Shown: one piece after another, positions 22,241 through 50,895 of the stretch | How positions within the stretch are numbered: position 1 is the first letter of the stretch | How the letters are laid out: the number at the start of each line of letters is the position of its first letter | The notes under the pieces: generated by a model | Seen by the model: the letters and a program-made list of their open reading frames with translations, nothing else | Told to the model about the DNA's origin: nothing | The model's database searches: none | Program-made: the position numbers and the translations under genes | Assembly (NCBI RefSeq): GCF_030704535.1 | Contig: NC_081821.1 | Location: forward strand, 6,153,001-6,217,000 | Origin: Vitis vinifera | Lineage: Eukaryota > Streptophyta > Magnoliopsida > Vitales > Vitaceae | Direction: 5' to 3' | DNA length: 64,000 nt

Positions 22241-22258
22241 TACTGAAAATTTGGCTAA

Positions 22259-23503
22259 TCATAAGCAACTCCACATCCACCCCAACCACTTTGGCCCAAA
22301 ACCCATTTTTTGCAAAACCTTCAACAAAAACCGCCAGTTAATGCTGTCATAGGCTTTCTTTATATCCAATTTGCAGATGAGCACCTTCTCTTTTCTTTTC
22401 TGCCACGAGTCTATCACCTCATTGGCAATTAAGGAAGCATCAAGAATTTGTTTTCCCATCACAAAGGCATTCTGGGTAGGGGAGACCACCTTTCCTACCA
22501 CTTTCTTGAGCCTATTAGCTAACACTTTAGCCAACAGCTTATAAAGCTCCCCCAAAAGGCTGATAGGTCTAAAGTCTCCTAGATCCTCTGCCCCACCTTT
22601 CTTAGGAATCAGGACCAGGAAAGTGTTATTGAGACTCTTAAGAAACGAACTATGCTTGTGGAATTCCTTAAACATTTCCATAATCTCCTCCTTAGCGAAG
22701 TCCCAACAGCTTTGCCAAAAGGCCACAGTAAAGCCATCTGGCCCAGGAGCTTTGTCTCCATTCATCTCCATCAAGGCCGAATGAACCTCATTCTTTGAAA
22801 AAGAAAGCTCCAGATTCTCCGCTTCTTGCTGACTGATCCGGTCTAGCTGAATCCTCCCAATATCCGCCTCCCATCCCCTATCTTCTGAAAGCGACTGCTG
22901 AAAAGCATTAGCAATTCCTTCCCTCACTTCTTGCTTCTCAGAGAGCCACTCCCCATTAATCTTAACTCTGTCCAAGGAGTTGTTTCTACGATGGACATTT
23001 GCCATATGATGGAAAAAGCCCGTATTTCTATCCCCTTCTCTTAGCCAGACCTCCCTTGATAGTTGTTTCCAATGAATTTCTTTTAGAAGCACCCACTTTT
23101 TATAGCTATCTTTTGCTTCCTTTTTAAACTCCGTTTCCTTCACTGTCAGACTTCTTTCACTTTCCACCCGGTCCCAGAAATCCACTTGCTGTAGGGCTGA
23201 AGATTTGTTACAGTCCAACCTCCCAAACACCTCTCTATTCCATACTTTCAAATTCTGTTTGATTCCCTTCATCTTAACAGCCAGTATATAGCTAGCACTG
23301 CCCCTGACCTCCATCCCGCCCCACCAGCTTCGAATAAGGTCTTTGAATCCCTCAACCTTGAGCCACATATTTTCGAACCTGAAAGGAGAAGGGCTTCTTC
23401 TTATCCCACCCCCCACAAGAAGAACTGGGAAGTGATCAGAAACAGGTTGGGGCAGCCTGCTTTGGAACACTCCACTGAAATGATCTAACCAGCTAGAGGA
23501 CAC
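22259..23503 (-). CDS. LINE ORF2 fragment: end of endonuclease and start of reverse transcriptase
   Basis: An open stretch of 414 codons inside the - strand LINE. It holds the last part of the AP-endonuclease-like domain (SDHFPVLL), the linker, and the fingers/palm start of the reverse transcriptase with NGDKAPGPDGFTVAFWQ, DFRPISLLGELYKLLAKVLA, QNAFVMGKQILDASLIANEV and KLDIKKAYDSINW. It ends at a TGA; the frame resumes past the stop in the next stretch. Confidence 0.88.
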   Translation of the reverse strand: MSSSWLDHFSGVFQSRLPQPVSDHFPVLLVGGGIRRSPSPFRFENMWLKVEGFKDLIRSWWGGMEVRGSASYILAVKMKGIKQNLKVWNREVFGRLDCNKSSALQQVDFWDRVESERSLTVKETEFKKEAKDSYKKWVLLKEIHWKQLSREVWLREGDRNTGFFHHMANVHRRNNSLDRVKINGEWLSEKQEVREGIANAFQQSLSEDRGWEADIGRIQLDRISQQEAENLELSFSKNEVHSALMEMNGDKAPGPDGFTVAFWQSCWDFAKEEIMEMFKEFHKHSSFLKSLNNTFLVLIPKKGGAEDLGDFRPISLLGELYKLLAKVLANRLKKVVGKVVSPTQNAFVMGKQILDASLIANEVIDSWQKRKEKVLICKLDIKKAYDSINWRFLLKVLQKMGFGPKWLGWMWSCL

Positions 23504-26069
23504 GAGAAACTTGTCCAGTCTAGCCCAGGATTGGTTATTAGGACCCCTACTCCAGGTGAACTGCCCCCCTGTAACGGAAGGTCTACCAGCCCTAACTCAT
23601 CAACAATCTCAGCAAATCTCCTCATCTTTGAAGTTATTCTCCTCTAGCTACTCCTTTCCATTTGGAGGAGAGTGATGTTAAAATCCCCCCCTAGGCACCA
23701 GGGGTCTTTCTAAAGACTTCTAATCGCCCCAAATTCTTCCCAAAGACATTCCCTTTCCACTTTTGTAAACGGACCATAAACTCCCGTGAACACCCAGACA
23801 ACCCCATCTTCTACATTCCTGAACCTGCAGGATAAGGAGAATTGGTCCTCCTTTCAATCCAAAATGTCAAGCGACCTTTTATCCCAGCAGATCAGGATAC
23901 CTCCCGCAGTCCCCTCTGCATCTAGAGCTCTCCAATCTAAAAATCTCCCCGAGCCTAAACTTCTCACAACACCCTTCGACATAGATTGAATTTTTGTCTC
24001 CTAGATACATAGTAAATCAACCTTTTGGTTCCTTATGAAAGTCTTGATAATTTTCCTTTTGGACCTATCGTTTACTCCTCTCACATTCCAACTTAGAACC
24101 TTTAACTTCATTGGATTACTACGATTTGACTCCCTTTGCCCTATGAGAGGCCTTTCTGCTTATTTCCCCCCTCGTAATTCATAGAGCACTCCAACCTCTT
24201 TAATTCCCTTTCGAACTTTGACTTCTCTAGAAGTTCTTTGCTGTGTATCCTCTCCCATCTCTTTCTGATTTTAATCAAGAAGCTCAAAATTTCCTTTTCC
24301 AATCCCTCTGTCGGGAATCCAAGAAAGTGGCTGAATTTTGCCAAGCTACTTTCCTCCCATTTTTCCTCATTCTCATTTCTCTCAACTTGGGTCTCAGACA
24401 TGCCAGAATCCCCCTCCGCACCCCTGGCCTTATCGCTGATTCTATTATCTTCTTCCAAGACCCAGTAGCCATTGCCATCCTCATTAGGCCCCTCCTCCGC
24501 TGTCAACCACATTGTGTTCTCACTCCGGAATTCCTCCCCTATAATCTCAGAACGACCGTAAAACTCCCCCTCCGGAGCCCAATCAAAAGAAAGAGAATTA
24601 AGATGAGAAACCCCCAAAACCCTTTTTCCCTTAGAATAAGAAACCGACCCATACCTCAGAGCTTCCTCTTCAAGAGCCCAGTCTATCTCTGAGTGGCTAA
24701 CTTTCAACTGCTGCTTCCTGAAGTCCTTAGTTTCCCAGGCAACAAAGGGCTCCAACTTTGAGAAGTTCACGCTCCTGGAAATGTTGCATTCTAGAAGACA
24801 GGCCTTCTCCCGCGGGCCTTTACTTAAAGCCTAGGCTAGGGGCGTGACTGGGCTGACCCTTTCTAGCCCATCAAACCCAACTCGCTTTGAGCAGTCCACC
24901 TTTTTAGCCCTCCACCTAGTCGATGGGCCTGCCTCTGACCCATCTGCGACAGCCACCACTTCTTTTAACTTTAAGCCCAAAGTTTTATTTTGCAAGAAAG
25001 GCCCGCCAGCCCTCCTCGCATCCTTTGAGCCCACGATCAGGCCTGATGCAGGAGGCCCATGCGCCATCACATCAGCCCAGTTCCGGGTCGCCGAGTCTTG
25101 GGCCCGATTTTCAAACTCCTGGCCCAACCCATTCTCTTGCGCACCCATCACCAGCGTCTCGAGCCTCGTGCTCCCCGACTCTTCCTCCACGCGTGAAACA
25201 ACTTCACCCCTAACCTCACCACTTTTTCGCCCCGACACTTCACCACCATCCACCAATTCTTTCCTCAGCTTCGGTCTTAGCTCCCACCAAAGCATAAGGT
25301 AGTAGACAAACTCCCTAACTTCGATCTCCAACCCACTCGGCATAAAACCTTCATTCGTTTTTACCAAGATTCGAGCTCACTGGAGATCCCCCAACTTCTC
25401 CGTCTGTGGAGCAATTGCGACGAAGCCCCCACACTCGTCTCCCACTCTTCTCAAAATTGTCGGATTCCACAACGAGATTGGGAGTCCGACGATTTTGACC
25501 CAGACTTCCTTTCTTAACTCTTCCTCTACCCAACACCCGGTCCTAGGGTTCTAGTGTTCCAGTCCCAACTAGTGCCCTCCCAACAAACGTTTCCCTGAGG
25601 ATAGAACACGTCTTGCTTCTTCCAAGGCTTCAAACTCCAACAAGACCCTATTCTTCTCCAGTCTTGCCAGCCCTAAATTTCCTTTTAGCCCCCAAGAGTT
25701 TGCCATTAATCTCCCTAGTTTCTCCATATCCTCTCCTCCTTCTGCACTAGATTTCCAGCTCGCAACAATGCAATGTTCCAATTTCCACAGGTTTTCGAGT
25801 GTTTCCTCCCTTCTAACCTTCACTCTGACTGAGTTATTAACCCTCCAACTTGGTCTCTTCGCTACTTCCGCAAACGATCTCTCCAAATCTAATTTCCCCA
25901 CTACCCTTGCTTCTTGCTTATTTGCTTTTCTGCCCATAGCTCCTTCCATTTGTTGAATTTTCTCTGCCATGGTCACCCATCGTCCTTTTTTCCCTCCACC
26001 TTTCGGAATAAAAAGGTGATGTTAAAATGCCTCTAGGACTTAGTGTGTCATTTGTGTCATTTCTATTAT

Positions 26070-30743: not shown

Positions 30744-31192
30744 TTGGTTGGTATCATCTCTCTTGCAACAAATTTTCATTGTTTGGGTGAAACTGGTAAT
30801 TGGCCAGGTGCAGCAGCGGCAAGAGCAGGTGTAGGTGTAGGCTATGCTCACAATTTGCTTGCCTGGGACATGACTGATCAAAGGGTGTGGGATTCAGCCC
30901 ATCATAACAGACACACTGCTGGAGGCTGGAGCTTGTGGAGAAATGAGAATCACGACGACGTAGATTTGCAGGAGGAAAAGGAGAGGTGTCCTGGAATTAT
31001 AAAACAAAAACCACTTGAAGAAGAGGAAACTTCATCCAAACAGATATCAGGCGCCATTGTACTATCACTCAACTACAAAAACCGCAGGTGCCACGCAGCA
31101 TCGTCTTCTTCCTACTCTCTATCTAAAATTACTCACACTTTCTAACATAAACCCCAATGGAAACCTAATCATCAGACACCCCTCACTTCTTA

Positions 31193-31200
31193 TAAATAGC
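31193..31200 (+). promoter_or_regulatory. TATA box of the first RING-H2 gene
   Basis: TATAAATA lies 80 bp upstream of the ATG at 31273, a position and sequence that also occur before the two other RING genes. Confidence 0.6.
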
Positions 31201-31272
31201 ACCAGTTGTTTGAAAACGAAACTCAAGTTCACATCCCCATACCCGTCTTTCTACTGTTCTTTCTTCTTAGTT

Positions 31273-32070
31273 ATGGCCACCTGTTTTGGCCCTATATGTA
31301 TCATGTGGCAGCCCCCTGATTCTGTTCCTGATGAACCACCACCCTCGCATGCATTTTTCATTGGATTTCGAGATCGGAATGTAGTACAAAACCACTGGCT
31401 AGACGGAAAGCAACCGGCGACAGTACTACTATATGTTCCCGTAAGAATTGAGACGTTTGCAGTTGAAGGTGACGAATTGTTAACTAGTGAGAATTCTGAA
31501 TTCGCCAACCTATCTCGCTTGCTTTCTCTTGTGGGGGTACATTCGTTTTATCTGGCGTCAGTCGTACAAGTGATACACTCTAATGCTGTGGCCATGGCGT
31601 ATGAGACTACCGACAATGGCCAGAACGTAATTGCCATGGTTGCGGAGATTCCATTCCGGTGGTTTTGTCCCCCACAGGAGGTCCAGCAGAATCAGGACGA
31701 GGATGATGAAAACGAGGATGAAGATGAAGATGAAGATGAAGATGAAGATGAAGATGACTCTGATGAATTCGAAGACGGTGAGAATGAGACTATGGATGAG
31801 GTTGTGAGCTATTCATTGGAGGATGGGATGGACGTGGACGTGGACATGGTTGTACCTGCAACCAAAGCTTCCATTGAGGCGCTTGAGAAGCTGGAGGGTT
31901 TAAATTCAATGGGCAAGTGTATGATATGCTTGGAGCAGCTTTCATTGGAAGATGAAGTTAGTAAGATGCCATGCTCGCATGTTTATCATGGAGACTGTAT
32001 CATACAATGGTTGAAGAAGAGTCACATGTGTCCCTTGTGCCGCTTCAAGATGCCGGTCGACCCAAGTTGA
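31273..32070 (+). CDS. RING-H2 finger protein (probable E3 ubiquitin ligase), copy 1
   Basis: Intronless, 265 aa. The frame runs further up to 31015, but the ATG at 31273 is chosen because it follows the TATA box and matches the start context (TTAGTTATGGC) of both paralogues. The N-terminal 140 residues have no domain I recognise but are conserved among the three copies (DAVxNxWLxxxxP, LSLVGVHSFYLASVVQVI). Then come an acidic Asp/Glu run (about 145-170, GATGAA repeats) and a C-terminal RING from C216 to C256: CMIC, x14, C-S-H, x2, H, x2, C, x10, CPLC. RING-H2 domains recruit E2 enzymes for ubiquitin transfer; the substrate is unknown. It is the most divergent of the three. Confidence 0.85.
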   Translation: MATCFGPICIMWQPPDSVPDEPPPSHAFFIGFRDRNVVQNHWLDGKQPATVLLYVPVRIETFAVEGDELLTSENSEFANLSRLLSLVGVHSFYLASVVQVIHSNAVAMAYETTDNGQNVIAMVAEIPFRWFCPPQEVQQNQDEDDENEDEDEDEDEDEDEDDSDEFEDGENETMDEVVSYSLEDGMDVDVDMVVPATKASIEALEKLEGLNSMGKCMICLEQLSLEDEVSKMPCSHVYHGDCIIQWLKKSHMCPLCRFKMPVDPS

Positions 32071-33040
32071 AGCTCTCAATGCCATGCATTCTCATATGAA
32101 AGTTAATACCATGTCGTCTCACAATTTTCTATAAATTTTTTTTGAAACAACTTCATATTTTTCTCTTGGAATGATTTGAGGTCTTCTAGCTATTTATTTC
32201 ACTTTTTCATCTTTCTATTGTTAGAGCAATATTATCTTTTTTCTCTTCTCTGTGATTCTTTTGAACATGGCATCTTTCACATGTGTTGCACATTTTTCAA
32301 TCACACTCACTTTGTAGTTGGCTTGGGTTGAAGCATAAAACTTGAAAATCCCACATAAAATGACAAAATTAAATAGTACGCCCATGAGGATTGGCTTTAG
32401 AAAAATGATTAGCTCATAATTTACTTTCTAGAAATGTCACATCATATGTTGGAATATTTTAAAATTTTAGGGTCATTTTATGGTATCACAAAGTACTTTT
32501 CGATATCATATCTCCATTTTTTAAAACGATATCTGTAAAGTTATCTTGGGGTAGGAATCCCATGCACCTAACATTTAAGCTATGTTTACAACATCCAATT
32601 ATATTATTTAAGAAATAATTTTATAAAAGTTGTAAAATAATTTAAATTAAAGTTGTTATTAATTTTATGATATAAAATTGAAAAACCACGATCTAATAGC
32701 GTGAATGAGTGTAATTAAAAATTATAATATAAGGATTAAGAATTAATAATTTAATTTAAATAAAGAATAAAGTTTTTAACCTAATTAAACCCGCAACATA
32801 TCATAAATTAACAAAACATCCAAAATATTGAAAAAAATAAAAGAAAGGTAAATAAGCATACAAATGATGTAAGAATTATTATGTCGAAAACCCTTATACT
32901 AACTATAAAGATAAAAAATCACAAGGTTTAATACATTTAATATAAATCTACTATATGAGATCAATTTACATGAATTTATTTCCACCTAATTTGTCACAAG
33001 TCAAACATTTTTAAATATATGTATGACTTTTCAATTGAAT
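32071..33040. other. AT-rich spacer
   Basis: 3' flank of RING copy 1, then AT-rich sequence. No gene or recognisable element. Confidence 0.5.
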
Positions 33041-34336
33041 AAATAACAATCTTGGATTTTTAAAGAAGAATAAGTCATTGTCTAAAAGAATTTTAGACCA
33101 AAAATAGAATAAAACAAAATTACCGACATACTTATTGTTATTATAAAAGTTATAACACTAAGACCTTATGAAAAAACTCATTTATAAATAAATTGAAATA
33201 AATATTTATTGTTAAAAATTAAATTAATAATCTATCAAATAATAACTAAAAATTGTATTATTAAATTTTATTATAATTTCCATTTTTTATGGAGAATATT
33301 ATATGAAACTTTGAAAGTATTTTTTGAAAAAAAAAATTAAAATAGGACAAATATATAAAATTTTAAGAGTATAAAAAATGTGAGGAAATTGTGAACAATG
33401 TGATTAAATATGCCTAAGTAATATCAACACTATTGGAAGTGGAAAAAAAAATAATATAATTGAAAATTAAAATTAAAAGACAATTCCTCACATTCTTCAT
33501 ACCTCCCAATTTTTTTATTATTTTAATTTATTTTTCATAAATTCTATCAATCTTAGTGTATATCAACAATATCATAGCTATTTGAAGTGAAAAAAATAAA
33601 ATAAAATTCGAAAAATACAAAATTTGGAGGATACGAAGGATCCTCATATTCTTTATACCCTCTATAATCTTTAAGTATTTCCAAGTTTTAATTTTTTATG
33701 CATAATTTCCATCAATCCTAAGTGTGGTTAGTACATTTGAAACAATATAAAAATAATTGAGAGTAAGAAAAAAATTAAAAATTCAAAAAAGTGGAAATTT
33801 TGAAGGGTACAAAAAATACAAGGATTCTTTATATTTTTCGTACCTTTCTTAATTTTTAAGTATTTTGAAGTTTTATTTCTATTTTTTCCATAATTTCCAT
33901 ACTTTTAATCAAATTTACATACATACATCAATTTTTAAAAAATAATAACAAGAAAAACAATTGAAACTAATTTTATAAAATAGTCAAACAAATTTTAAAA
34001 TTATCTATTTTCATAAAACTATTCTTTATTTTTTGCTTTCAAAAACATATTCAGGTAATTCAGGTCATTTTAATTAGATTAACATGTGAAATTAGCCATT
34101 AAATATACCTTTAAAAGTATTAAGAAAATAAAACTGTATTAATGAAAAAGCATCATTGATTAAGCCTAATAAGTAATTAATTTAAATTGATTAATGATTC
34201 AATTTTTCAAGAAATTTAATTTTAATCTAAATAAAATAAATTATTATTTCAATTAAACTAAAATGAGACGTAATTTATTAAAAGTTAACTTCAAAATGAA
34301 AAATATAATAATAATTTTAATAGGACTCTAAAATCC

Positions 34337-34344
34337 TATAAATA
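34337..34344 (+). promoter_or_regulatory. TATA box of RING-H2 copy 2
   Basis: CCTATAAATAAG, 80 bp before the ATG at 34424; also present at 42306-42313 in the sister copy. Confidence 0.6.
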
Positions 34345-34423
34345 AGAGTAGGTGTGGAAAACTAGACTCAATTTCAAGTCCTTATAGTTGTGTCCCGTAC
34401 CTAGTCTTGATTCCTAGTTAGTT

Positions 34424-35152
34424 ATGGCGATCTTGGTTGGTCCTAGATGTAGTATTCTGCGGCAGCCTGATCTTGTTGCCGATGGTGAGGATGATGAAGG
34501 GCTGCTGTGGGATGTGTTCTTCATGGAGTTTCATGTTAGAGATGCGGTCTTAAACTACTGGTTGGAAGATGATAGTCCTATAAGACTACGTGATGTGAAC
34601 ACGATCGGTCCTATGAGAAGGAGGTTGTTTGTGGTTAGGCGTGATCAGTTATTAAGAAGCCAGAGTCTTGCATTCGAACATGTATCTCTCCTGCTTTTTC
34701 TTATGGGTATACCTTCAATCTTGCATGCATCATTCGTGCAAGAGATACGCTCCGGTGCTGTTTTGTTGGCGAATGAAACCACCAACATTGGTCGTCGCAT
34801 AATTCCTATGGTGGTGGACATTGATCTGTGGTATATGGGCGAGGAAGAGGAAGAAGATGAAGATGAATCAGATGAGATTATGGCTGAGGTTATGAGGTCT
34901 TCATTGAATGATGTGACCGACTTGTCTGTGCCTGCAACTAGAGCTTCCATTGAGGCACTTGAGAAGATCAAGTTTGAGGATGTAAATTCCACAGACAAGT
35001 GTATAATATGCCTAGAAGAGTTCGCAACGGAATCGGAGGTTAGTCGGATGCCATGTTCCCATATTTATCACGAAGATTGCATTATAGAATGGTTGGAGAG
35101 GAGTCACATGTGTCCCTTGTGCCGCTTCAAGATGCCTGCCATCTCAAGTTGA
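34424..35152 (+). CDS. RING-H2 finger protein, copy 2
   Basis: Intronless, 242 aa, ATG in TTAGTTATGGC. The N-terminal domain is shared with copies 1 and 3 (FFMEFHVRDAVLNYWLEDDS; LLLFLMGIPSILHASFVQEI). A short acidic run EEEEDEDESDE is followed by the RING at C193-C233 (CIIC, MPCSHIYHEDC, CPLC). All eight zinc ligands are present and the frame is intact, so it is probably functional. It differs from copy 3 by about a dozen substitutions plus the acidic-run length. Probable E3 ubiquitin ligase with unknown substrate. Confidence 0.87.
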   Translation: MAILVGPRCSILRQPDLVADGEDDEGLLWDVFFMEFHVRDAVLNYWLEDDSPIRLRDVNTIGPMRRRLFVVRRDQLLRSQSLAFEHVSLLLFLMGIPSILHASFVQEIRSGAVLLANETTNIGRRIIPMVVDIDLWYMGEEEEEDEDESDEIMAEVMRSSLNDVTDLSVPATRASIEALEKIKFEDVNSTDKCIICLEEFATESEVSRMPCSHIYHEDCIIEWLERSHMCPLCRFKMPAISS

Positions 35153-35583
35153 GGATTTATAACAACTTATCTTATACAATACTTTGTACAATTCTTTGTT
35201 GTATTTTGTTAGAATGAGATGAGAATTTTTTTTAGTCATTTTGTTGTATCATCATTTATTTTATGTTATTTAATAAATTAATTTAAAATTAGATATATTA
35301 TAATCAAATGTCACAATATTATTATTATAAAACATTTTATGTAACTTAATAATAAATATATATTTATAAAATTCATATTTTATATCTACATATAATACTA
35401 TTATCAAATATGATAAATTATATCATATGTATATTAATGTTTATTATATTATTTTTTAGAGTTTTTCTCAATAATTTCACAAGTTTTTATTAATTTTTGT
35501 ATCAAAATATCCACCGACACGTATAAATCTGTAAAATGGAGTTACCGATATATTCACACAGTATACATGTTATCTTCTACGTA

Positions 35584-38500
35584 CTTTCTGAAGCTGAACC
35601 TCCATCGCCCGACATATACACACCAGAGGAATGGTCCGAAGCTGCGAAACCATAGCTTACGATTCGGTCACTTCGCCGCCTCCTGTTGCTCTCGTCTGCG
35701 GCGCCAAGAACTGTGGCAAGACCGCCTTTTCTCGCCACCTTCTCAATATTCTCCTTCAGAGGTCTGATGCAAAGTCTCTTCTTTTATACCTCAAATTTTC
35801 TGAAACGCCGTTGTATTTCTTTGGTGTTTAACAGTAGTGTTGCCTTTTCGTGTTGATGGGAAGATGGGTTTTTTCTTTTTTTCTTTTTTAATTTTTATTT
35901 TTAATCAAAGTTGTATGAAAATTGAGTAAGTACATATTCAACTGAAGAAATAACACAAATAGGTATCAAATTCTGTATGTTAGTATGAACTATAGAAATT
36001 TGCTTCTGAAATTTGTATGCCTGGATGTTGTTTGACGAATTGTTTCTTTCTAAATGTTCTTTCTTGTGTGCAATGGGAGTTGGGTTTTTGTAAATTTCTA
36101 TGAATAAACTGTAAATACACTTAAATTTGGTCTTTATGTGTCAGATATTCGCCATTATTGAATGGGAATGTATTAAATTTGAAGGTTCATCAGTTGTGTG
36201 TTTTTATGGACCCGAATGATTAACTAGGCTTATGCTATTACATGGATATGTGCTTCTATATGGCAACATGCTTTTATCGCAGAATGAAGTAGGAAAATAG
36301 AATGAAGTTTAATTTTTTTGACCTCCAAAAGAGAAAGAAAATATCACCTCAATTGTGCAAATAGTTGTACCAAACTTGGTTTATTGGAGATTCTTGTTTC
36401 CTCGGATCCCAAATTATAAGATATCCAACCCTGAACCTTTTTCAGATAAATGATGCTCAAAGTTTTGCTTTATTTTGTTTCTACTTTTCTTGATAAGCAA
36501 ATGGAGCATTTATTTGTTTGTTTGTTTGTTTTTTCTTTTTTTTTTTTGGTGGGTGGTGGGTTTTAAACTAATGCAAAATATATGTGACAGCACAAAATTT
36601 GATCTTTATTTGTAATTTTACATGTGGCTATTCTGTAATTGGACTTGAATTTGTTTTGCATATGCAATGATGCTTGTACATTTAATATTCCCTTAATTTC
36701 CTCTATTGGCCTGTTGGTAAATATAAAATCACTTTTTTATCTGTGCCTGTCCATATATCAAAGGGATAAATCAGTGGGTGATTTGGTTTGTTTTTACATG
36801 TATTTTATGGATAATGTTTCTGGTTTGGTTCTGATTTTGTGTGTGATAGCAACATGTTTTCATAGACTAGACCCTTTAAAATCTCTTTTTCTCTTTGGTT
36901 TGCAGATATCAAAAAGTAGCTTATTTGGATACAGATGTTGGCCAGACTGAGTTTACTCCTCCTGGATTTCTATCCCTCACTGTAATTGACCAACTTACTC
37001 CAGGTACTCGTTTATGATTCAACCTTCTCAACAATCTGGTCAACATACTGCTTTAGTTAAAAAATTTCCTGAGTTTCTCTTTACAGTGGCTTGGTTTTCT
37101 TTGTTCTGTTTTCTAATAATTCTTTAACTATTAGATTTGACAATCCCATGCCTCAAGACGCCAGAGAGGTATGCAATCCTAAACTCTGATATTGCTAGTT
37201 ATGGATTCTACTCTATATTTGAAGAATTCATGAAATTGTATTTTTTTTATTTATTTATCAGAAACAACAAATGCATTTTTTGATTGGAAATTGCTTTAGG
37301 GGACTGATTTCATGAACTTTGTTATATGACAAGACTTACAGTTTGATCTTAAAAATGTATCTAAATGGAAAATATTGTTTGCTTCAACATTATCAAGACT
37401 AAATGGACGCTCTGTGATGACTGATGAGGAGTGGGATAAAATGGATTTCAAGGTTTTTTGGAGTGGGGAAAAGGGAATCATGTGGTTTAATGAACCGTTC
37501 TGGATGAGGGGCTCATGTGAACTAATGAACCATTCTAGCTGAGAATGGATGATGGTAAGTTTGAAAATTTCTGGTTGAAGTAGTCTAATGTTATAGCAAA
37601 TTTACAGCAATAAAATATGGTTATTCAGTGGATTGTGATTTATATTGCCTACAATTGCTAGCTTGTTATAGTCTGTTGGTCGATGGGGATTTTTATCAAA
37701 TGAATCCATCACTGCTGGATGCAAGACCATGGTTCCAGCGCAAGAAGATGATATGTGATGAATAATTGCAAGAACTTGCCAGGCATAAAGATTTTACTTT
37801 AGCTTGCTGGGATAAGGTAATTTTTTTAGAATGTGGTTTTTAATTGAAGGTGATTTTAGGAATTATAGAATCACCACTTTTGATGTGGATGATTTTTTTT
37901 TTTTTTTAAATTAGGTTTTAGTCTGAACTTAAGAACGCTGTTGGGTCCCTTTTTGAAGAAATGTCACCAAAAAAATAGCATCTTAGAGAAGTAAAGATTG
38001 AACTGTCAGAGATCACATTAGATACAACTATACAAGAGTCCACCTTTTGTAGACAGAGCATGTAATAGGTCACAAGTAACATTTAGAGATCACAATTCAC
38101 GTATCTATATTTGATGTGGCTGCATCCCATGTCATATTCAGCGGAACAAATCTTTCTGGGTTAAGATTCATTACTAAAACTTTGAAGGAATTTGAATTAT
38201 ATATATGCACTGTATGATCACTATCAAAGGGAGTACTGCATGCTCAAGGGCAGCAAAAAGCCTGTTAAAACAGAGTTGCCCCTTGTTGTTAATACACCTG
38301 GATGGGTAAAAGGTGAGCTTACTTTTTCTATTTCCCTTTTCTACCATATAATATGGGCTAGTTTACTTCAAACTTATATTAGTTCTTTGCTGGATACTAC
38401 TGTCTTTGTGTGAGTGTCATTTGATTCAATTTTATGCTCCCCTGTTCCTCTTGCCCAGGTATTGGTCATGACATACTGGTGGATGTGTTAAAATATATTG

Positions 38501-40187
38501 CTCCTACCCATGTAGTTAAGATAAACATTTCTGCTGAGGGTAAGAATCTTCCATCTGGAGCATTCTGGTTGGATGAGGATCATAAAGAGTCAGTGAATCT
38601 AATTGAGGTCAGTTCAGCTCGTCAGGACTCTTTTAAGAGATCGTAAGTTCTTATCTTTCTCCTTTTTTGCTCCAAAACTATTGAACTACGAAAGCAGAAT
38701 TCCTCCCTTTTATAGTCTTTCATGATTTTCCTTTTTATTTTTACTGCATAGAATTCTAGATCACTATAGATGGTGAACATGAACTGCTTCAGATATTTTG
38801 GCATTTCTTCTCTTTTTTTGACAATCTCTTAGTTGAATGTCAAATTCTATTTGTCCATTTCTAGAGTTCTAATTTATTAATATTGGGAAAAATGATCACC
38901 TACATCAAGAAGCAACTTATACTGAGGGCATTAATTTAAAAGACAAGCAATTAATCAATTTACCATCTCCTACATTTTGGTGAGGAACTGTAGCTACTTA
39001 TTAGCTGCTTGAAGAATATATTCTTAATGAGGTTTATCACGTTTTGTGATAAAGCCAGAAAATTTTATTGAAGCTTGTATCTAGGGATTGTTGCTTCTCA
39101 ATCCCAATTTTAATATTTTTTCTGATTAAAGTCATTTCAATATTTGGTATTGAGTGAAAGTTAATTTCATGAGCAGCATATATTTTAATTTGCTAGAACC
39201 AGAAGAAATGGAATTTTCTGAAAGATTTAATTGTTATTTCTTACAGCTCTTCTCCATTATGTTTTCCAGGGTCTTAGTACAAAAAGATGCAGGCCTTTTA
39301 CGGGATTTACGAATAATGGCTTATTTCAGGCAGTGTTTTCCAAGTAACTTGAATATCACAACAATCAAAGAACTTGCACATGCATTGACCTCTCACCCTC
39401 CTTATGAAATTCCCATATCAAGTATCAAGATTAAGCATCTCCATTGCCAGGTTGGTGTGATACATTGACATGAAGTTTGTAACATAGTTTTTGAAAGGCA
39501 ATCTTTTCAGCACATATTGCATATTATTCTCCATTCCTGTTGACATTTCAGAGGCAGAAGTCAATCAGTATAATACTCTGCTCATTATTATATTTTTTTT
39601 CTGCAGCATTATTTTTACGTTTCCATCCCCTTTCAGTAATATAACACCTTTCTTTTATGGCACAAAAATTATATGCTAGGTCCCAAGTACTGAAATTCTA
39701 TACAGTTTGAATGCAACTATTGTTGGCTTGGCAGTTAGTTCTGAAGATTCTGAAAATTTATCTCCATGCATTGGCCTTGGTAAGTTTTTTGCTACAATGT
39801 CTGACCAGTGTTCAATTCATTGTTTCTGCTTTGCCATATAATTCTTGTACTATTTTGCAGAAGCAATGATTGTTTTGATTATTATTCCAGTTTTTAAATT
39901 TTTTGAGTCTTTCAAAGAAATTTAGAGATTTTGACCATTGAAAGCCTAGTGCTTATTGGGTGACAATAGTATAACTCATAAGAGATTTCTTGGTAGTATT
40001 TTGATAAATATAGATAATGATGTGGATGCATTAGCACAATGAATTGCATATAGAAATTTTTTTCAGAAAGATATGTTCTTATATTTTTCTTTTGCCTGCT
40101 GCTTTTGTGATCCAGGAATTGTAAGAGGCATCCACACATTCTAACGTTTGCTCTATGTGCTTACACCTGTTCCACAAAGCACTCAGG
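35584..40187 (+). pseudogene. NOL9/Grc3-like kinase pseudogene (left duplicate)
   Basis: Matches the intact gene at 45314-50895 exon by exon: exon 1 (about 35585-35761), exon 2 36906-37003, exon 3 37135-37168, half of exon 4 (from about 38192), exon 5 38459-38642, exon 6 39270-39450, exon 7 39680-39779 and part of exon 8 40116-40187. It has lost its promoter and start codon. Exon 1 lacks one base near 35645 (frameshift), and the exon 4 acceptor and first half lie in an inverted block. Exon 8 has a stop where the intact gene has Lys and is cut short, and exon 9 is absent. Splice sites of the remaining exons are kept, so the decay is recent. Confidence 0.92.
37931..38189 (-). other. 259-bp inverted block within the NOL9 pseudogene
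   Basis: This stretch is the reverse complement of 47669-47927 in the intact copy, while the flanks (GTCTGAACTT on the left, TTGAATTATAT on the right) stay collinear. About 20 bp present in the intact copy at 47649-47668 are missing at the junction. The block includes the exon 4 acceptor and its first 51 bases. Confidence 0.92.
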
Positions 40188-40729
40188 CTTTGTGCATTGA
40201 AAATTCCTGATAGAAGCTAATGAATCCTACAAAAATGGCCCTGGATTATGTTATAGTGAATAGCAGCACCACAATACTAGAAACTGAAATGGCTTACACA
40301 GTTAGAAAACATTCATCAAGTGATCGATCTTTCCAGTGGTTCCTTAATGTGCTTGGATTTTTTGTCTTACTAAATGCCTGTATTCAGATTTTTTAATTTT
40401 CTACTTATCTGCATTTCTCACAATTCCTTTTTTCCAGGAACGTGAAATACCTGAAGATGATGCAAGACTCTTACTAGTTTCTCGGGCTTATGACAACCAA
40501 CGCCTAAGATTTGGAACTGGTCCAGGACGACCTTAGTTGGAAGTTGGAACATCAAGGAAAGCATCTTCTGGGACTGTTTTTTTTTTTTTTTTTAATTAAA
40601 AAATTCGAAGGGAATAATTACTTTGGAAATTGCTGTTGGCAGAACTAACTTTCATTGTATTAGATTTTTATTTTTATTTTTTATTTTATTTTATTTTTTA
40701 TGATTTTGTGCAGTGGCATGAATAACAAT
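40188..40729 (+). other. foreign 3' exon fused behind the NOL9 pseudogene
   Basis: After homology to NOL9 ends, TTTTTTCCAG at about 40437 is followed by a clean coding-like stretch EREIPEDDARLLLVSRAYDN, then QRLRFGTGPGRP and a TAG at about 40534. It looks like the last exon of another gene, ending in GTGPGRP. I do not recognise the protein. Nothing similar lies after the intact NOL9 gene. Confidence 0.45.
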
Positions 40730-40753: not shown

Positions 40754-41030
40754 TGGTATTTGTTTTTTTACTTAATTTTAAATAGAACATTAATGCTTAA
40801 TAGTGTTAAATATTAAGTTGTTTGTTTTGTAGTATTTTATTTCTATTAAGTATTAAAAGGTAAAGAAAAACCAATATGTTATTTTTTTTTATTTAGAAAA
40901 AGCTACATATTGGCTTTTTCCATTTAGTAAAAAGTTTATAATAAGTTATTAAAAAGTAAAAAAACAAACAACCTAAATCATGAAAACAAATTGCTTTCAG
41001 TAAAAAGTAAAAAAAACAAACATCACCTAA
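40754..41030. mobile_element. MITE inserted in the right duplicate only
   Basis: Starts GGTGGTATTTGTTTTTTTAC and ends with the near-reverse GTAAAAAAAACAAACATCACC, so the terminal inverted repeats are about 20 bp. The left duplicate has uninterrupted sequence here (GAATAAGT near 33072). It inserted after the duplication, or was lost cleanly from the other copy. TA flanks both ends, a possible minimal target duplication. Confidence 0.8.
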
Positions 41031-42305
41031 GTTACTATCTAAAAAGAATTTTAGATCAAAAATAAAACAAAACAAAATTACCAACATACTCATTGTTGTT
41101 ATAAAAGTTATAACACTAAGACCTTATGAAAACAATCATTTATAAATAAATTAAAATAAATATTTATTGTTAAAAATTAAATTAATAATCTATCAAATAA
41201 TAACTAAAAATTGTATTATTAAATTTTATTATAATTTCCATTTTGTATGGAGAATATTAGATGAAACTTTGAAAGTATTTTTTGAAAAATAAAATAAAAT
41301 AAGATAAATATATAAAATTTTAAGAGTATAAAAAATGTGTGGAAATTGTGAACAATGTGATTAATATGCCTAAGTAATATCAACACTAATGGAAGTGGAA
41401 ATTTAAAAAAAAAAATTGGAAATTAAAATTAAAAGACAATTCCCCATATTCTTCATACCTCCCGAATTTTTTAGTATTTTAATTTATTTTTCATAAATTC
41501 CATCAATCAGTGTATATGAACAATATTATAACTATTTGAAGTGAAAAAAATAAAATAAAATTCGAAAAATACAAAATTTGGAGGATACTAAGGATCCTCA
41601 CATTCTTTGTACCCTCCATAATTTTTAAGCATTTTCAAGTTTTAATTTTTTATGCATAATTTCTATCAATTCTAAGTGTAGTTAGTACATTTGAAACAAT
41701 ATTATAACGATTGAAAGTAAGAAAAAAAATTCAAAATTCAAAATAGTGGAAATTTTGAAGGGTTCGAAAAATATAAGGATTCTTTATATATTTCGTACCT
41801 TCCTTAATTTTTAAGTATTTTGAAGTTTTCTTTTATTTTTTCCATAATTTCCATACTTTTAATCAAATTTACATACGTACATCAATTTTTTTTTTTAAAA
41901 TAATAACAAGAAAAACAATTGAAACTAATTTTATAAAAATAGTCAAACAAATTTTCTAATTATCTATTTTCATAAAACTATTCTTTTTTTTTTCTTTCAA
42001 AAACATATTTAGGTAATTCAGGTCATTTTAATTAGATTAACATGTGAAATTAGCCATTAAATATACCTTTAAAAGTATTAAGAAAATAAAACTGTATTAA
42101 TGAAAAAGCATCATTCATTAAGCCTAATAATTAATTTAAATTAATTAATGATTCAATTTTTCAAGAAATTAAATTTTATTCTAAATAAAATAAATTATTA
42201 TTTCAATCAAACTAAAATGAGACGTAATTTATTAAAAGAAACTTCAAAATGAAAAATATAATAATAATATATAGCAATAATAATTTTAATTGGACTCTAA
42301 AATCC

Positions 42306-42313
42306 TATAAATA
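42306..42313 (+). promoter_or_regulatory. TATA box of RING-H2 copy 3
   Basis: CCTATAAATAAG, 88 bp upstream of the ATG, conserved with copy 2. Confidence 0.6.
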
Positions 42314-42393
42314 AGACTTAAGTGTGGAAAACAAGACTCAACTTCAAGTCGTTATAATTGTGTCCCGTACCTGGTCTTGATTCCTAGTTAGTT

Positions 42394-43152
42394 ATGGCGA
42401 TCTTGGTTGGTCCTGGATGTAGTATTCGGCAGCAGCCTGATCTTGTTGCCTATGGTGAGGATGATGAAGTGCTGCTGTGGGATGTGTTCTTCATGGAATT
42501 TCATGTTAGAGATGCGGTCTTAAACTACTGGCTGGAAGATGATAGTCCTTTAAGACTCCGTGATGTGAACACGATCGGTCCTATGAGAAGGAGATTGTTT
42601 GTGGTTAGGCGTGATCAGTTATTAAGAAGCCATAGTCTTGCATTCGAACATGTATCTCTCCTGCTTTTTCTTATGGGTATACCTTCAATCTTGCATGCAT
42701 CATTCGTGCAAGAGATACGCTCCGGTGCTGTTCTGTTGGCGAATGAAACCACCAACATTGGTCGTCGCATAATTCCTATGGTGGTGGACATTGATCTCTG
42801 GTTTATGGGCGAGGAAGAGGAAGAGGAAGAAGAAGAGGAAGAGGAAGAGGAAGAAGATGAAGATGAATTAGATGAAATTATGGCTGAGGTTATGAGGTCT
42901 TCATTGAATGATGTGACCGGCTTGTCTGTGCCTGCAACTAGAGCTTCCATTGAGGCACTTGAGAAGATCAAGTTTGAGGATGTAAATTCCACAGACAAGT
43001 GTATAATATGCCTAGAAGAGTTCGCAACGGAATCGGAAGTTAGTCGGATGCCATGTTCGCATGTTTATCACAAAGATTGCATTATACAATGGTTGGAGAG
43101 GAGTCACATGTGTCCCTTGTGCCGCTTCAAGATGCCTGCCATCTCAAGTTGA
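42394..43152 (+). CDS. RING-H2 finger protein, copy 3
   Basis: Intronless, 252 aa, sister of the gene at 34424. It has the same N-terminal domain and C-terminal RING (C203-C243, MPCSHVYHKDC, CPLC). The acidic run before the RING is expanded to sixteen Glu in a row (GAAGAG repeats), ten residues longer than in copy 2. The frame is intact. Probable E3 ubiquitin ligase, substrate unknown. Several differences from copy 2 lie in the RING (Ile/Val, Glu/Lys, Glu/Gln around the ligands), where E2 contact could differ. Confidence 0.87.
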   Translation: MAILVGPGCSIRQQPDLVAYGEDDEVLLWDVFFMEFHVRDAVLNYWLEDDSPLRLRDVNTIGPMRRRLFVVRRDQLLRSHSLAFEHVSLLLFLMGIPSILHASFVQEIRSGAVLLANETTNIGRRIIPMVVDIDLWFMGEEEEEEEEEEEEEEEDEDELDEIMAEVMRSSLNDVTGLSVPATRASIEALEKIKFEDVNSTDKCIICLEEFATESEVSRMPCSHVYHKDCIIQWLERSHMCPLCRFKMPAISS

Positions 43153-45290
43153 GGATTTTTATGCAAGATAACAACATGTCTTATACAATACTTTGAACAA
43201 CTTCTTCTTGTATTTTGTTAGAATGAGATGATAATTTTTCTGATTCAATTTGTTGTATCATATTTTATTTTATATTATTCAATAAATTAAATGAATCATA
43301 ATTTTAATATTAAATATATTTTAAAATTAGACATATTATAATCAAATGTAACAATATTATTATTGAATAACATTTTATATAACTTAATAATAAATATATA
43401 TTTATAAAATTCATATTTTATATCCACACATAGTATTATTATCAAATATGATATCATATATATATAATATTATCATGAGTTTTGATTAATTTTTGTTTTA
43501 CCATATTTTGTGTCAAAATATTTACAAATATATCCTGATAAATCTGTAAAATCGAGTTAAATATTTTCATCCATGGGTATACATGTTATCTTCTGCATGC
43601 TTCTTAGCAAATCTTATCCACTGAGAAGTCATCAAAGGAAGTTATGAGTGATCTTTTAGATAACTTTTTGCATTTTTATCTCTTACGTTTTCATATCCTT
43701 AACTAACACGTCTAATAGGCTCTTGTGTGAATTATTCTATGAAGGACCATTATACTTTTTAATTTAAATTAATAACTAAAATAATATTTTTTTTATTACT
43801 TATATATTTGCTTCAATTAATTGGTATTTGTTAGAGTTGGTTTGGAGACATTTTGAGAGTTTTAAAACTATCCAAAAATTATCACTATTATAAATAAATA
43901 AATAAAATACACACTCTCTTAGATTACATATTTCTTAGAAAAGATTAGAATGAATATATTTTTTTATTTCTCTATTTTTGAGAAAATAAAATAATATATA
44001 TAAGATATTTCATGGAATAAAGTCATTTCTTGAATCCTTCCTATTTTTTTCATGAAAACAAAGATGAAGACTCTTGTGATATGAAAAAGAATGGTTTCTT
44101 ATTTCATAATTCCATTCATGACTTAGCATGAGAAAATGATGCGTGAAACAATCAATCGATATTTTTGGACATTTGAAAAGATAACCCAAAAATATTATTT
44201 TTCACCTGTATTAATAATAAATTTAATAAAATTAATATTATATAGTTAAAGATGAATTTAATTTATCTGGATAATAATTTTTATTTAGGTATTTAATAAT
44301 TGTTTTATACTTTAATAATATTTTCAAAAGTTAAGATGGTGTTTAGTTTTATGTATGCAATCTTTTATATGATTTTGTAAAGGGCTTTGTTTAGTCAATT
44401 TTGTTTTAACAAAAAAAGTGATTTTTTCTTTTAACTTCTATTTTTAATGAAAGATGTCCTATTTTTCCTATTCTTTTTTCCACATTTAACTTTGTTATGA
44501 TACTTAAACTCACTTTATCATATAAAATAAAATAAAATTTATTTTAAATTTTTTATAAATCTTATTTTAAAAACAATTATACTATCTCAAATTTTGTGTG
44601 ATTTGAATGCAAAATAAGTTTATTATAAATTCATCAAATTGTCAACAAAAAAAAATTGAATATAGTTAAAATAGATTCTGTTTTCATCTATTTCTTTTCT
44701 AGGAAAATTTTGATCTATTTCTTTTACATAAATTATTACTCAATAAAAAAACAAAATAAAATCATTTAATTTAGATAAGAAATCAATTTAAATTAAATTC
44801 ACAATATTCCAAATTGAAATTGAAATTTTAGCATATAACCACTATTTTTACTTCATAATTTATCTAATTCTCTATAAAATTAAATAATTTAAATTTCTAT
44901 AAATTTATTATCGTGTCTCATTATCCACTCCAACTCCAAAAAGGCATGACGATCCTTTCACATTTTAAACCATCATCTTATAAATAGATGGTAATTTTAT
45001 TATTATTATTATTATTTTTAATTAGAAAAGTTAAAACTTCTTGGGTGTAATCTTAGGTAAGGACACTCCAGGGCAAAGGAGCAATGAAACCCTAAACGGC
45101 GCCGTTTCCTGCCGTAAGCGAAAGGCCTGAGGAGAGTGTGGGCACGTTTGCGTGGGGTAGAAAGCAGAGGGATTGTGTTGTCCGATTCCCTCTTTCCATA
45201 TGCCAAGACTACATTTTTCGAATCTTTCCTTCACGCTTTCTATGTGCCTTGCAATCCCATTTGTTCCTGCGTATAAAATATAGTGTGATA
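43153..45290. other. spacer between RING copy 3 and NOL9, with NOL9 promoter
   Basis: 43153-43594 is matched in the left duplicate. 43595-45323 has no counterpart there. It is AT-rich, with no gene; the last 250 bp, richer in GC, is the likely NOL9 promoter and leader. A (TTA)n tract lies at about 44997-45015. Confidence 0.6.
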
Positions 45291-45313
45291 GGGTAGAGGG
45301 TTGGAGAAGAGAG

Positions 45314-48300
45314 ATGGCGGCTTTTTCTGAAGCTGAAGCTCCATCGCCCGACATATACATACCAGAAGAATGGTCCGAAGCTGCCGAAACCATAGCTTAC
45401 GATTCAGTCACTTCGCCGCCTCCTGTTGCTCTCGTCTGCGGCGCCAAGAACTGTGGCAAGACCACCTTTTCTCGCCACCTTCTCAATATTCTCCTTCAGA
45501 GGTCTGATGCAAAGTCTCTTCTTTTATACCTCAAATTTTCTGAAACGCCGTTGTATTTCTTTGGTGTTTAACAGTAGTGTTGATGGGAAGATGGTTTTTT
45601 TTTTTTTTTAATGAAAATTGAGTAAGTACATATTCAAATGAAGAAATAACACAAGTAGGTATCAAATTCTGTATGTTAGTACGAACTATAGAAATTTGCT
45701 TCTGAAATTTGTATGCCTGAATGATGTTTGACGAATTGTTTCTTTCTAAATGTTCTTTCTTGTGTGCAATGGGAGTTGGGTTTTTGTAAATTTTTATGAA
45801 TAAACTGTAAATACACTTAAATTTGGTCTTTATATGTAAGATATTCGCCATTATTGAATGGGAATGTATTGAATTTGAAGATTCATCAGTTGTGTCTTTA
45901 TGGACCCGAATGATTAACTAGGCTTATGCTATTACATGGAAATGTGCTTATGTATGGCAACATGCTTTATCACAGAATGAAGAAGGAAAATGGAATGAAG
46001 TTTAATTTTTTTGACCTCCAAAAGATAAAGAAAATATCACCTCAATTGAGCAAATAGCTGTACCAAACTTGGTTTTTTGGAGATTCTTGTTTCCTCAGAT
46101 CCCAAATTATAAGATATCCAACCCTGAACCTTTTTCAGATAAATGATGCTCAAAGTTTTGCTTTATTTTGTTTCTGCTTTTTCTTAATAAGCAAATGGAG
46201 CATTGATTTGTTTGTTTGTTTGTATTTTATTTTATTTTTTTTAGGTGGGTGGTGGGTTTAAACTAATGCAAAAATATATGTGACAGCACAAAATTTGATC
46301 TTTATATGTAATTTTACATGTGGCTATTCTGTAATTGGACTTGAATTTGTTTTGCATACGCAGTGATGCTTGTACATTTAATATTCCCTTAATTTCCTCT
46401 ATTGGCCTGTTGGAATAATATAAAATCACTTTTTTATCTGAGCCTGTCCATAGATCAAAGGGATAAATCAGTGGGTGATTTGGTTTGTTTTTACATGTGT
46501 TTTATGGATAATGTTTCTGGTTTGGTTCTGATTTTGTGTGTGATAGCAACATGTTTTCATAGACTAGACCCTTTAAAATATCTTTTTCTCTTTATTTTGC
46601 AGATATCAAAAAGTAGCTTATTTGGATACAGATGTTGGCCAGACTGAGTTTACTCCTCCTGGATTTCTATCCCTCACTGTAATTGACCAACTTACTCCAG
46701 GTACTCATATTCAACCTTCTCAACAATCTGGTCAACATACTGCTTCAATTAAAAAATTTCCTGAGTTTCTCTTTACAGTGGCTTGGTTTTCTTTGTTATG
46801 TTTTCTAATAATTCTTTAATTATTAGATTTGACAATCCCATGCCTCAAGACGCCAGAGAGGTATGCAATCCTAAACTCTGATATTGCTAGTTATGGATTC
46901 TACTCTAGATTTGAAGAATTTGTGAAATTGTATTTTTTTTTTCTTATCAGAAACGAAAAATGCATTTTTTGATTGGAAATTGCTTTAGGGGACTGACTTC
47001 ATGAACTTTGTTATATTACAAGACTTACAGTTTGATCTTAAAAATGTATCTAAATGGAAAATATTGTTTGCTTCAACATTATCAATACTAAATGGACACT
47101 CTGTGATGAGTGATGAGGAGTGGGATAAAATGGATTTCAAGGCTTTTCAGAGTGGGAAAAAGGGAATCACGTGGTTTAATGAACCATTCTGGATGAGGGG
47201 CTCATGTGAACTAATGAACCATTGTAGCTGAGAATGGATGATGATAAGTTTGAAAATTTCTGGTTGAAGTAGTCTAATGTTATAGCAAATTTACAGCAAT
47301 AAAATATGGTTATTCAGTGGATTGTGATTTATATTGCCTACAATTGCTAGCTTGTTATAGTCTGTTGGTCTATGGGGATTTTTATGAAATGAATCCATCA
47401 CTGCTGGATGCAAAACCATGGTTCCAGTGCAAGAAGATGGTATGTGATGAATAATTGCAAGAACTTGGCAGGCATAAAGATTTTACTTTAGCTTGCCGGC
47501 AAGAAGATTTTACTTTAGCTTGCTGGGATAAGGTTATTTTTTTAGAATGTGGTTTTAATTGAAGGTGATTTTAGGAATTATAGAATGACCACTTTTGATG
47601 TGTATGATTTTTATTTTTTATTTTTAAATTAGGTTTTAGTCTGAACTTCAGATGCACAGATGGAATTTTCCTTCAAAGTTTTAGTAATGAATCTTAACTC
47701 AGAAAGATTTGTTCCGCTGAATATGACATGGGATGCAGCCACATCAAATATAGATACGTGTATTGTGATCTCTAAATGTTGCTTGTGACCTATTACATGC
47801 TCTGTCTACAAAAGGTGGACTCTTGTATAGTTGTATCTAATGTGATCTCTGACAGTTCAATCTTTACTTCTCTTAGATGCTATTATTTTGGTGACATTTC
47901 TTCGAAAAGGGACCCAACAGCGTACTTGAATTATATATTTGCACTGTATGATTACTATCGAAGGGAGTACTGCATGCTCAAGGGCAGCAAAAAGCCTGTT
48001 AAAACAGAGTTGCCTCTTGTTGTTAATACACCTGGATGGGTAAAAGGTGAACTTACTTTTTCTATTTCCCCTTTCTACCATATAATATGGGCTAGTTTAC
48101 TTCAAACTTATACTAGTTCTTTGCTGGAAGCTACTGTCTTTGTGTGAGTGTCATTTGATTCAATTTTATGCTCCATTGTTCCTCTTGCCCAGGTATTGGT
48201 TATGACATACTGGTGGATGTGTTAAAATATATTGCTCCTACCCATGTAGTTAAGATAAACATTTCTGCTGAGGGTAAGAATCTTCCAGCTGGAGCATTCT

Positions 48301-50895
48301 GGTTGGATGGGGATCATAAAGAGTCAGTGAATCTAATTGAGGTCAGTTCAGCTCGTCAGGACTCTTTTAAGAGATCGTAAGTTCTTATCTTTGTCCTTTT
48401 TTGCTCTGAAACTATATAATTATGAAAGCAGTTTTCCTCCCTTTTTATAGTCTTTCATGATTTTCCTTTTTATTTTTACTGCATAGAATTCTAGATCACT
48501 ATAGATGGTGAACATGAACTGCTTCAGATATTTTGGTATTTCTTCTCTTTACTTGACAATCTCTTAGTTGAATGTCAAATTCTATTTGTCCATTTCTAGA
48601 GTTCTAATTTATTAATATTGGGAAAAATGATCACCTACATCAAGAAGCAACTTATACTGAGGGCATTAATTTAAAAGACAAGCAATTAATCAATTTACCA
48701 TCTCCTACATTTTGGTAAGGAACTGTAGCTATGTATTAGCTGCTTGAAGAATATATTCTTAATGAGTTTAATCTGGTTTTGCGATAAAGCCAGAAAATTT
48801 TATTGAAGCTTGTATCTAGGGATTGTTGCTTCTCAATCCCAATTTTAATCTTTTTTCTGATTAAAGTCATTTCAGAATTTGGTATTGAGTGAAAGTTAAT
48901 TTCATAAGCAGCATATATTTTAATTTGCTAGAACCAGAAGAAATGGAATTTTCTGAAAGATTTAATTGTTATTTCTTACAGCTCTTCTCCATTATGTTTT
49001 CCAGGGTCTTAGTACAAAAAGATGCAGGCCTTTTACGGGATTTACGAATAATGGCTTATTTCAGGCAGTGTTTTCCAAGTAACTTGAATATCACAACAAT
49101 CAAAGAACTTGCACATGCATTGGCCTCTCACTCTCCTTATGAAATTCCCATACCAAGTATCAAGATTAAGCATCTCCATTGCCAGGTGGGTATGATACAT
49201 CGACATGAAGTTTGTAACATAGTTTTTAAAAGGCAATCTTTTCAGCACATATTGCATCAATACCCTCTTTGATATTATACTCCATTCCCGTTGACATTTC
49301 GGAGGGAAGTCAATCAGTATAATACTCTGCTCATTATTATTTTTTTTCTGCAGCATTATTTTTACGTTTCCATCCCCTTTCAGTAATATAACACCTTTTC
49401 AAAAATTATATGCTAGGTCCCAAGTACTGAAATTCTATACAGTTTGAATGCAACCATTGTTGGCTTGGCAGTTAGTTCTGAAGATTCTGAAAATTTATCT
49501 CCATGCGTTGGCCTTGGTAAGTTTTTTGCTACAATGTCTGACCTATGTTCAATTCATTGTTTCTGCTTTGCCATATAATTCTTGTACTATTTTGCAGAAG
49601 CAATGATTTTGTTGATTGTTATTCCATTTTTTAAATTTTGTGAGTCTTTCAAAGAAATTTAGAGATTTTGACCATTGAAAGCCAAGTGCTTATCGGGTGA
49701 CAATAGTATAAGTCATAAGAGATTTCTTGGTAGTATTTTGAGAAATATAGATAATGATGTAGATGCATTAGCACAATGAATTGCATATAGAAATTTTTTC
49801 AGAAAGATATGTTCTTATATTTTTCTTTTGCCTGCTGCTTTTGTGATCCAGGAATTGTAAGAGGCATTGACACATTCAAACGTTTACTCTATGTGCTTAC
49901 ACCTGTTCCACAAAGCACTCTGGAAAAGGTTGATCTTTTATTACTAGGGTTTGTACAAATTCCTACTTGTTTGCTACAGGTAAGTGGTCCTCTTCCAACT
50001 GCTGCATCTGTTTCTATGAAGTTTATTTATTTTTCTGATAACCACCAATGATATTAATGCTTTTTTAGTATCTGTTCGATCTCCTTTAATATCTGTGTGC
50101 ATATGGAAAAATAAAATAAAATAAAATTTTAGATATTTCTTGAGATTAAGATACTCGTGACATGACACGAAAATATGCCCCCCTTTTCTCCTATATTGCA
50201 CTTCCAGTAAAAATGGTGTTTTGTTATTTCACAAATGCACAGTCCAAATTAGCCTCATTTTCTATGTGTAACCATAGTTTTTATAGTTATATAAGACACA
50301 TTAATAAGCTGCCCCTTAATGTCTTGCCTTGAGAAATCTGCTGGAGTGGAAATCAGAAGGGAGTCAGTACTTAATATTTATAATGTTGAGTTCATGTAAC
50401 TGTTAGCAAATTATTTATAAGGATATTCACTCAGAAGCTTACTTCTCCTGCTTGGTGTGCACTCTTTTCATTATGTGGTTGGTACAACAGAAAAGTGGAT
50501 CCTAAACATGATTCCAGAAAACTACTGCTATATTTAGAAAACAAGAAAATTGGTTCATTGTTGCAAAGCAAATTTTTTTGTTTTCCAACAGAAAGGATGC
50601 GGCTTTGTTTTTTTATGACAGGCCAGTTCAGCAAGATAATTAAGCTGTAAATACTTCAGTTCATTTCATCATGCATCTAAAGAAGGAGAAATAGAAGCAC
50701 AACCTTGTCTTCATTATCATTCTTGTCTAATTGATGGGGATGAAAACACTTCTGTTGCTGATTTTATTCTCTCTCAGCCCAAACATGGGTTAAATACTGA
50801 AAAAAGCACTCCTCTCATGTAAACTGTCAAATTCTTTGCAGGTCCAGGGCTGCGTTTCGCCTTACATGTCGACAAATGTTCTGCCCACAGGCTAG
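45314..50895 (+). CDS. NOL9: polynucleotide 5'-hydroxyl-kinase NOL9/Grc3-like
   Basis: Nine exons: 45314-45501, 46603-46700, 46827-46860, 47877-48046, 48193-48376, 49005-49185, 49417-49516, 49852-49979 and 50842-50895. All junctions are GT-AG and phases match, giving 378 aa. Walker A GAKNCGKTT lies at 43-51, DTDVGQTE at 71-78 and NTPGW at 157-161, all typical of the Clp1/Grc3 kinase family. Grc3/NOL9 phosphorylates the 5'-OH RNA end left by the Las1 nuclease during ITS2 removal from pre-rRNA in the nucleolus. The plant protein is short, lacking the long N-terminal extension of animal NOL9. Subtype (NOL9 rather than CLP1) is inferred from the short form and FTPPGFLSL motif. It ends CVSPYMSTNVLPTG. 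Confidence 0.88.

Follow-up and report, generated by a model that had tools for sequence, protein, structure and literature searches.

A 260-bp inversion across the intron 3/exon 4 boundary of a NOL9-like pseudogene beside its complete tandem sister in grapevine

The window analyzed here is a stretch of 64,000 nucleotides of the Vitis vinifera genome (contig NC_081821.1, positions 6,153,001 to 6,217,000 of the forward strand), and all coordinates given below are positions within it. Self-comparison by BLASTN revealed a tandem duplication, assembled from five forward blocks with 87 to 98% identity. In each unit, a RING-H2 gene precedes a NOL9-like gene, which is NOL9 copy A in unit A (33071 to 40184, plus strand) and the greater part of NOL9 copy B in unit B (41028 to 49920, plus strand). 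Both RING-H2 genes (34418 to 35152 in unit A and 42388 to 43152 in unit B) are open and match the Pfam family zf-RING_2; they differ in the length of an acidic run. A third, more distant RING-H2 gene (31003 to 32070) lies in tandem upstream of both units. Approximately 1.7 kb of unit B (43600 to 45320), holding the copy B start codon and the DNA upstream of it, is absent from unit A, and this difference reflects either a deletion in A or an insertion in B. For the 25-amino-acid stretch at 40459 to 40533, in the spacer between the units, no Pfam family was matched.

Several other features were observed in the window. Two 279-bp direct repeats (17619 to 17897 and 18498 to 18776), 99.3% identical, flank 600 bp, and the open frame between them (18095 to 18490), which had no Pfam match at 0.001, presumably resembles the RNase H end of a Copia element; an LTR element that inserted recently and lost internal sequence may account for the whole interval (17619 to 18776). 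On the minus strand, a LINE-type reverse transcriptase (21107 to 23596) is interrupted by one in-frame stop, with two adjoining open stretches matching positions 1 to 106 and 107 to 203 of the RVT_1 profile on either side of it, and this element probably resembles other grapevine elements. Plant-type genes were also seen at 12951 to 13325 (a Tify-domain-binding-domain [TDBD] fragment) and 53106 to 54149 (a Zein-binding domain protein).

NOL9 copy B spans 45314 to 50895 on the plus strand and has nine exons, located at 45314 to 45501, 46603 to 46700, 46827 to 46860, 47877 to 48046, 48193 to 48376, 49005 to 49185, 49417 to 49516, 49852 to 49979, and 50842 to 50895, the last of which includes the stop codon. 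Its boundaries were set from splice signals, conservation between the two copies, and motifs of plant NOL9. Each of the eight introns runs from GT to AG, and the open frame of 1,137 nt, including the stop, encodes 378 amino acids. The protein matched Pfam CLP1_P (PF16575; 2.2e-35) and NOL9_C (PF25467; 9.9e-32), both above the cut-off, and its top PDB match was NOL9 (2.7e-44). The exon 4 stretch by itself gave weak PDB matches (best E of 0.018, to a CLP1_P protein, with some unrelated sugar enzymes at 0.06), and the NOL9 identity therefore rests on the spliced protein. An earlier note on this DNA had named the gene as NOL9 and had assumed an intact sister copy; the former is borne out by the domain and PDB matches of copy B, and the latter by its complete nine-exon model. 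The domain content identifies the two copies as tandem NOL9-like genes for a predicted RNA 5'-kinase. Set against the known polynucleotide 5'-hydroxyl kinase NOL9/Grc3, copy B has both CLP1_P and NOL9_C, while copy A is a broken duplicate.

Copy A (35585 to 40184, plus strand) is, judged from its sequence, a pseudogene with four disabling lesions besides an inversion. It lacks the homologous start codon and the 5' end, its homology to the copy B coding sequence beginning inside exon 1, about 10 nt past the first base of the B start codon. Exon 1 also has a 1-bp deletion, causing a frameshift, and exon 8 contains a stop codon. Finally, the homology stops at 40184 inside exon 8, leaving the remainder of this exon and exon 9 missing; since this 3' end is also the end of the duplication unit, the truncation was probably present from the start.

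We compared substitutions between the copies over 257 codons, namely the whole codons of exons 2 to 8, with the collinear part of exon 4 and exon 8 up to 40184. Exon 1 (because of the frameshift), the 16 inverted codons, and the codons split by introns were left out. There were 12 nonsynonymous differences, one of them the stop, and 4 synonymous ones (pN of 0.0202 and pS of 0.0227), while the 16 inverted codons held 2 and 1, respectively. As the ratio is based on 16 changes (12 and 4), selection may have acted on copy A during some of its history. Collinear exons differed less than introns (21/964 versus 127/3303 sites, p = 0.012), which fits constraint on copy B.

The strand relationship of the two copies around exon 4 was resolved by BLASTN of 37701 to 38500 against 47301 to 48300. 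The left flank matched on the forward strand (225/264 identical, with 31 gap columns), ending at 37934, which corresponds to 47652. The block at 37931 to 38190 matched on the minus strand, as the reverse complement of 47668 to 47927, with 253 of 260 positions identical (97.3%), no gaps, and an E-value of 5e-128, which rules out a chance match; the remaining 7 positions distinguish the block from copy B. The right flank was again on the forward strand, starting at 38192, equivalent to 47926 (297/309 identical). The uninverted counterpart in copy B (47668 to 47927, plus strand) comprises the end of intron 3 and the first 51 nt of exon 4. In the self-comparison of the window (word size 11, E-values no higher than 1e-10, matches longer than 150 bp listed), this block was the sole minus-strand match. 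When 33000 to 40300 was compared with the minus strand of 41000 to 50100, just short matches were found besides it, one of 22 bp (E of 8e-4) and three of 14 bp (E of 0.5). The forward, minus, and forward pieces agree with the earlier description of a micro-inversion with collinear flanks; its length had been given as 259 bp, with coordinates that were right to within one base at one end, and is 260 bp by BLASTN.

In copy B, the AG acceptor (47875 to 47876) and exon 4, which starts at 47877, are contiguous and in frame. In copy A, the acceptor and the first 51 nt of the exon sit on the opposite strand, the latter at 37931 to 37981 (minus strand), matching B 47877 to 47927 with 3 differences, one of which is an ambiguous junction base at 37934. 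The rest of exon 4 is collinear (38192 to 38312, plus strand) and has 4 mismatches in 121 positions relative to B 47926 to 48046. The loss of the acceptor and of the first 17 codons, as previously proposed, holds up: 47877 to 47927 is 51 nt, or 17 codons' worth. Given that contiguity of the acceptor and exon 4 exists only in copy B, the gene structure assigns the derived state of the inversion to copy A.

The junctions were judged by eye from the sequences. At the left junction, four bases (37931 to 37934) overlap ambiguously, both parents fitting partly, with approximately 2 bp of microhomology and one substitution required whichever placement is chosen. Copy B bases from 47649 to 47667 (plus strand) contain the 15 to 19 bp without a counterpart in A: under one placement, B 47653 to 47667 is lost (15 bp) together with 2 bp at the right, and under the other, B 47649 to 47667 is lost (19 bp) and 2 bp are used twice. 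This agrees with the loss of about 20 bp at one junction that had been reported before. The right junction is a single base (38191) unlike either parent, representing a 1-bp insertion or a substitution, and no microhomology was seen there. A further difference between the copies, a 27-bp gap in intron 3 (47477 to 47503), lies some 150 bp to the left of the breakpoint and corresponds to a short tandem duplication in B that is single in A.

Repeats at the two breakpoints were assessed against 2000 random pairs with the same spacing. No inverted repeats above chance were found: with pads of 15, 25, and 40, the longest inverted matches measured 4, 5, and 7 bp, lengths reached or surpassed in 91%, 87%, and 41% of the random pairs. 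Nor were there direct repeats above chance; the longest direct match was 5 bp at each of these pads and was equalled or exceeded in 62%, 94%, and 100% of the pairs, respectively. No hairpin was seen in the uninverted region as single-stranded DNA, which folded worse than its shuffles (z = +2.12, with 98/100 shuffles folding at least as well).

To place the block relative to its surroundings, its intronic part was compared with seven other intron stretches, i.e., introns 1, 2, and 4 to 7 plus the portion of intron 3 to the left of it. It differed from B at 4 of 209 sites (1.9%), versus 127 of 3303 (3.8%) in the other stretches (Fisher p = 0.19), and had 0 indels where 1.3 were expected (chance of none, 0.28). 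By divergence from B, the block shows no clear difference in age from its flanks in either direction. Since its intronic divergence is no higher than that of the other introns, the simplest reading is that copy A's own DNA was turned round, and we put the probability of an in-place inversion within a decaying pseudogene at roughly 85%. We propose the following course of events. A tandem duplication copied a segment with the RING-H2 gene and most of the NOL9-like gene, and the upstream NOL9 copy, lacking both ends, decayed as a pseudogene. Presumably during this decay, some 256 to 260 bp across the intron 3/exon 4 boundary were freed by a break at each end and put back in the opposite orientation, at the cost of 15 to 19 bp on the left and with a change of about 1 bp on the right. 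Most likely, two double-strand breaks close to each other were repaired by end joining, a route we lean toward with some reserve; the approximately 2 bp of microhomology and the lack of inverted repeats above chance fit such breaks. The inversion itself would most likely be neutral decay of the pseudogene.

A single replicative event, in which the polymerase switches strand about 260 bp away, copies backwards, and returns (template switching or MMBIR), is a possible but less probable route to the same block. The left microhomology and the net replacement with loss agree with it, and short-range events of this kind, which likewise replace a sequence by its reverse complement and may lose bases at a junction, are termed prevalent in great ape genomes by a section heading of PMC7954356. 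However, the templates mentioned there lie within 100 nt, a range that the 260-bp block exceeds, the right junction showed no microhomology, and the data, for which a two-break inversion accounts equally well, do not call for two switches. The scars left by the two mechanisms, end joining and template switching, overlap.

The inversion had also been described as destroying exon 4 of one copy. The damage to exon 4 stands; taken as the destruction of the copy itself, the description is overstated in view of the four other lesions in A. It is unlikely that the inversion inactivated an otherwise working copy A. The acceptor and 17 codons are removed, and skipping of exon 4 would also shift the frame, as this exon is 170 nt long, but A also has no homologous start codon and stops within exon 8, with exon 9 wholly absent, and its right end, being the end of the duplicated unit, points to a probable truncation from birth.

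That the block was copied from sister gene B, by ectopic templating or conversion, instead of being flipped in place, appears improbable. The intronic part of the block is nominally nearer to B than the other introns are and is free of indels, a lean toward templating from B, but neither difference is significant by the tests above, and 7 of its 260 bp differ from B. Tandem near-copies are known misassembly spots, and an assembly artefact, or two haplotypes set in tandem, could in principle give such a picture; we regard this as slightly more improbable still, given that the block carries its own 7 substitutions, divergence between the introns reaches 3.8% with 20 gaps, some 1.7 kb is present in only one of the units, and another RING copy, more distant than these two, is located at 31.0 to 32.1 kb. 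Insertion of a transposon in reverse orientation was rejected, as the block consists of intron and exon sequence that belongs to this locus and to this position in it.

Micro-inversions are a recognized class of mutation (PMC3123225). In the avian survey given there, 11 of 17 loci contained them, with 49 positions affected and sizes of 5 to 38 bp; an upper size limit of 50 kb is recommended for vertebrates, and rates of 0.37 to 1.58 inversions per Mb per million years are given for six loci among the rows of its Table 1. Like those reported from avian introns there, the copy A block is a short in-place flip with collinear flanks, and at 260 bp it falls under the 50-kb limit; unlike them, it exceeds 38 bp, includes an exon edge, and is accompanied by a small deletion. 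It was also revealed by a tandem paralogue, whereas the avian ones were revealed by another species. Chloroplast micro-inversions, as treated in PMC3123225, share with the block that they are small inversions in plants. They are associated with hairpins, in contrast to the copy A block, which has no flanking inverted repeat above chance, and whose host sequence is a spliced, presumably nuclear gene. A partial literature search found no survey of plant nuclear micro-inversions, and such a survey may exist elsewhere.

Were copy A transcribed, its RNA would carry 260 nt that are 97% complementary to the intron 3/exon 4 boundary of the copy B pre-mRNA. We consider it very improbable, even so, that the dead copy supplies antisense or small RNAs that act on its living sister. 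The 260-bp inversion is real, longer than the avian micro-inversions and of the same kind, and is most likely ordinary. As a clean scar in a pseudogene, the single case matters little; the tandem sister, in turn, shows the ancestral order and serves as a local yardstick of divergence, so that a systematic count of small inversions in recent duplicates would be feasible.
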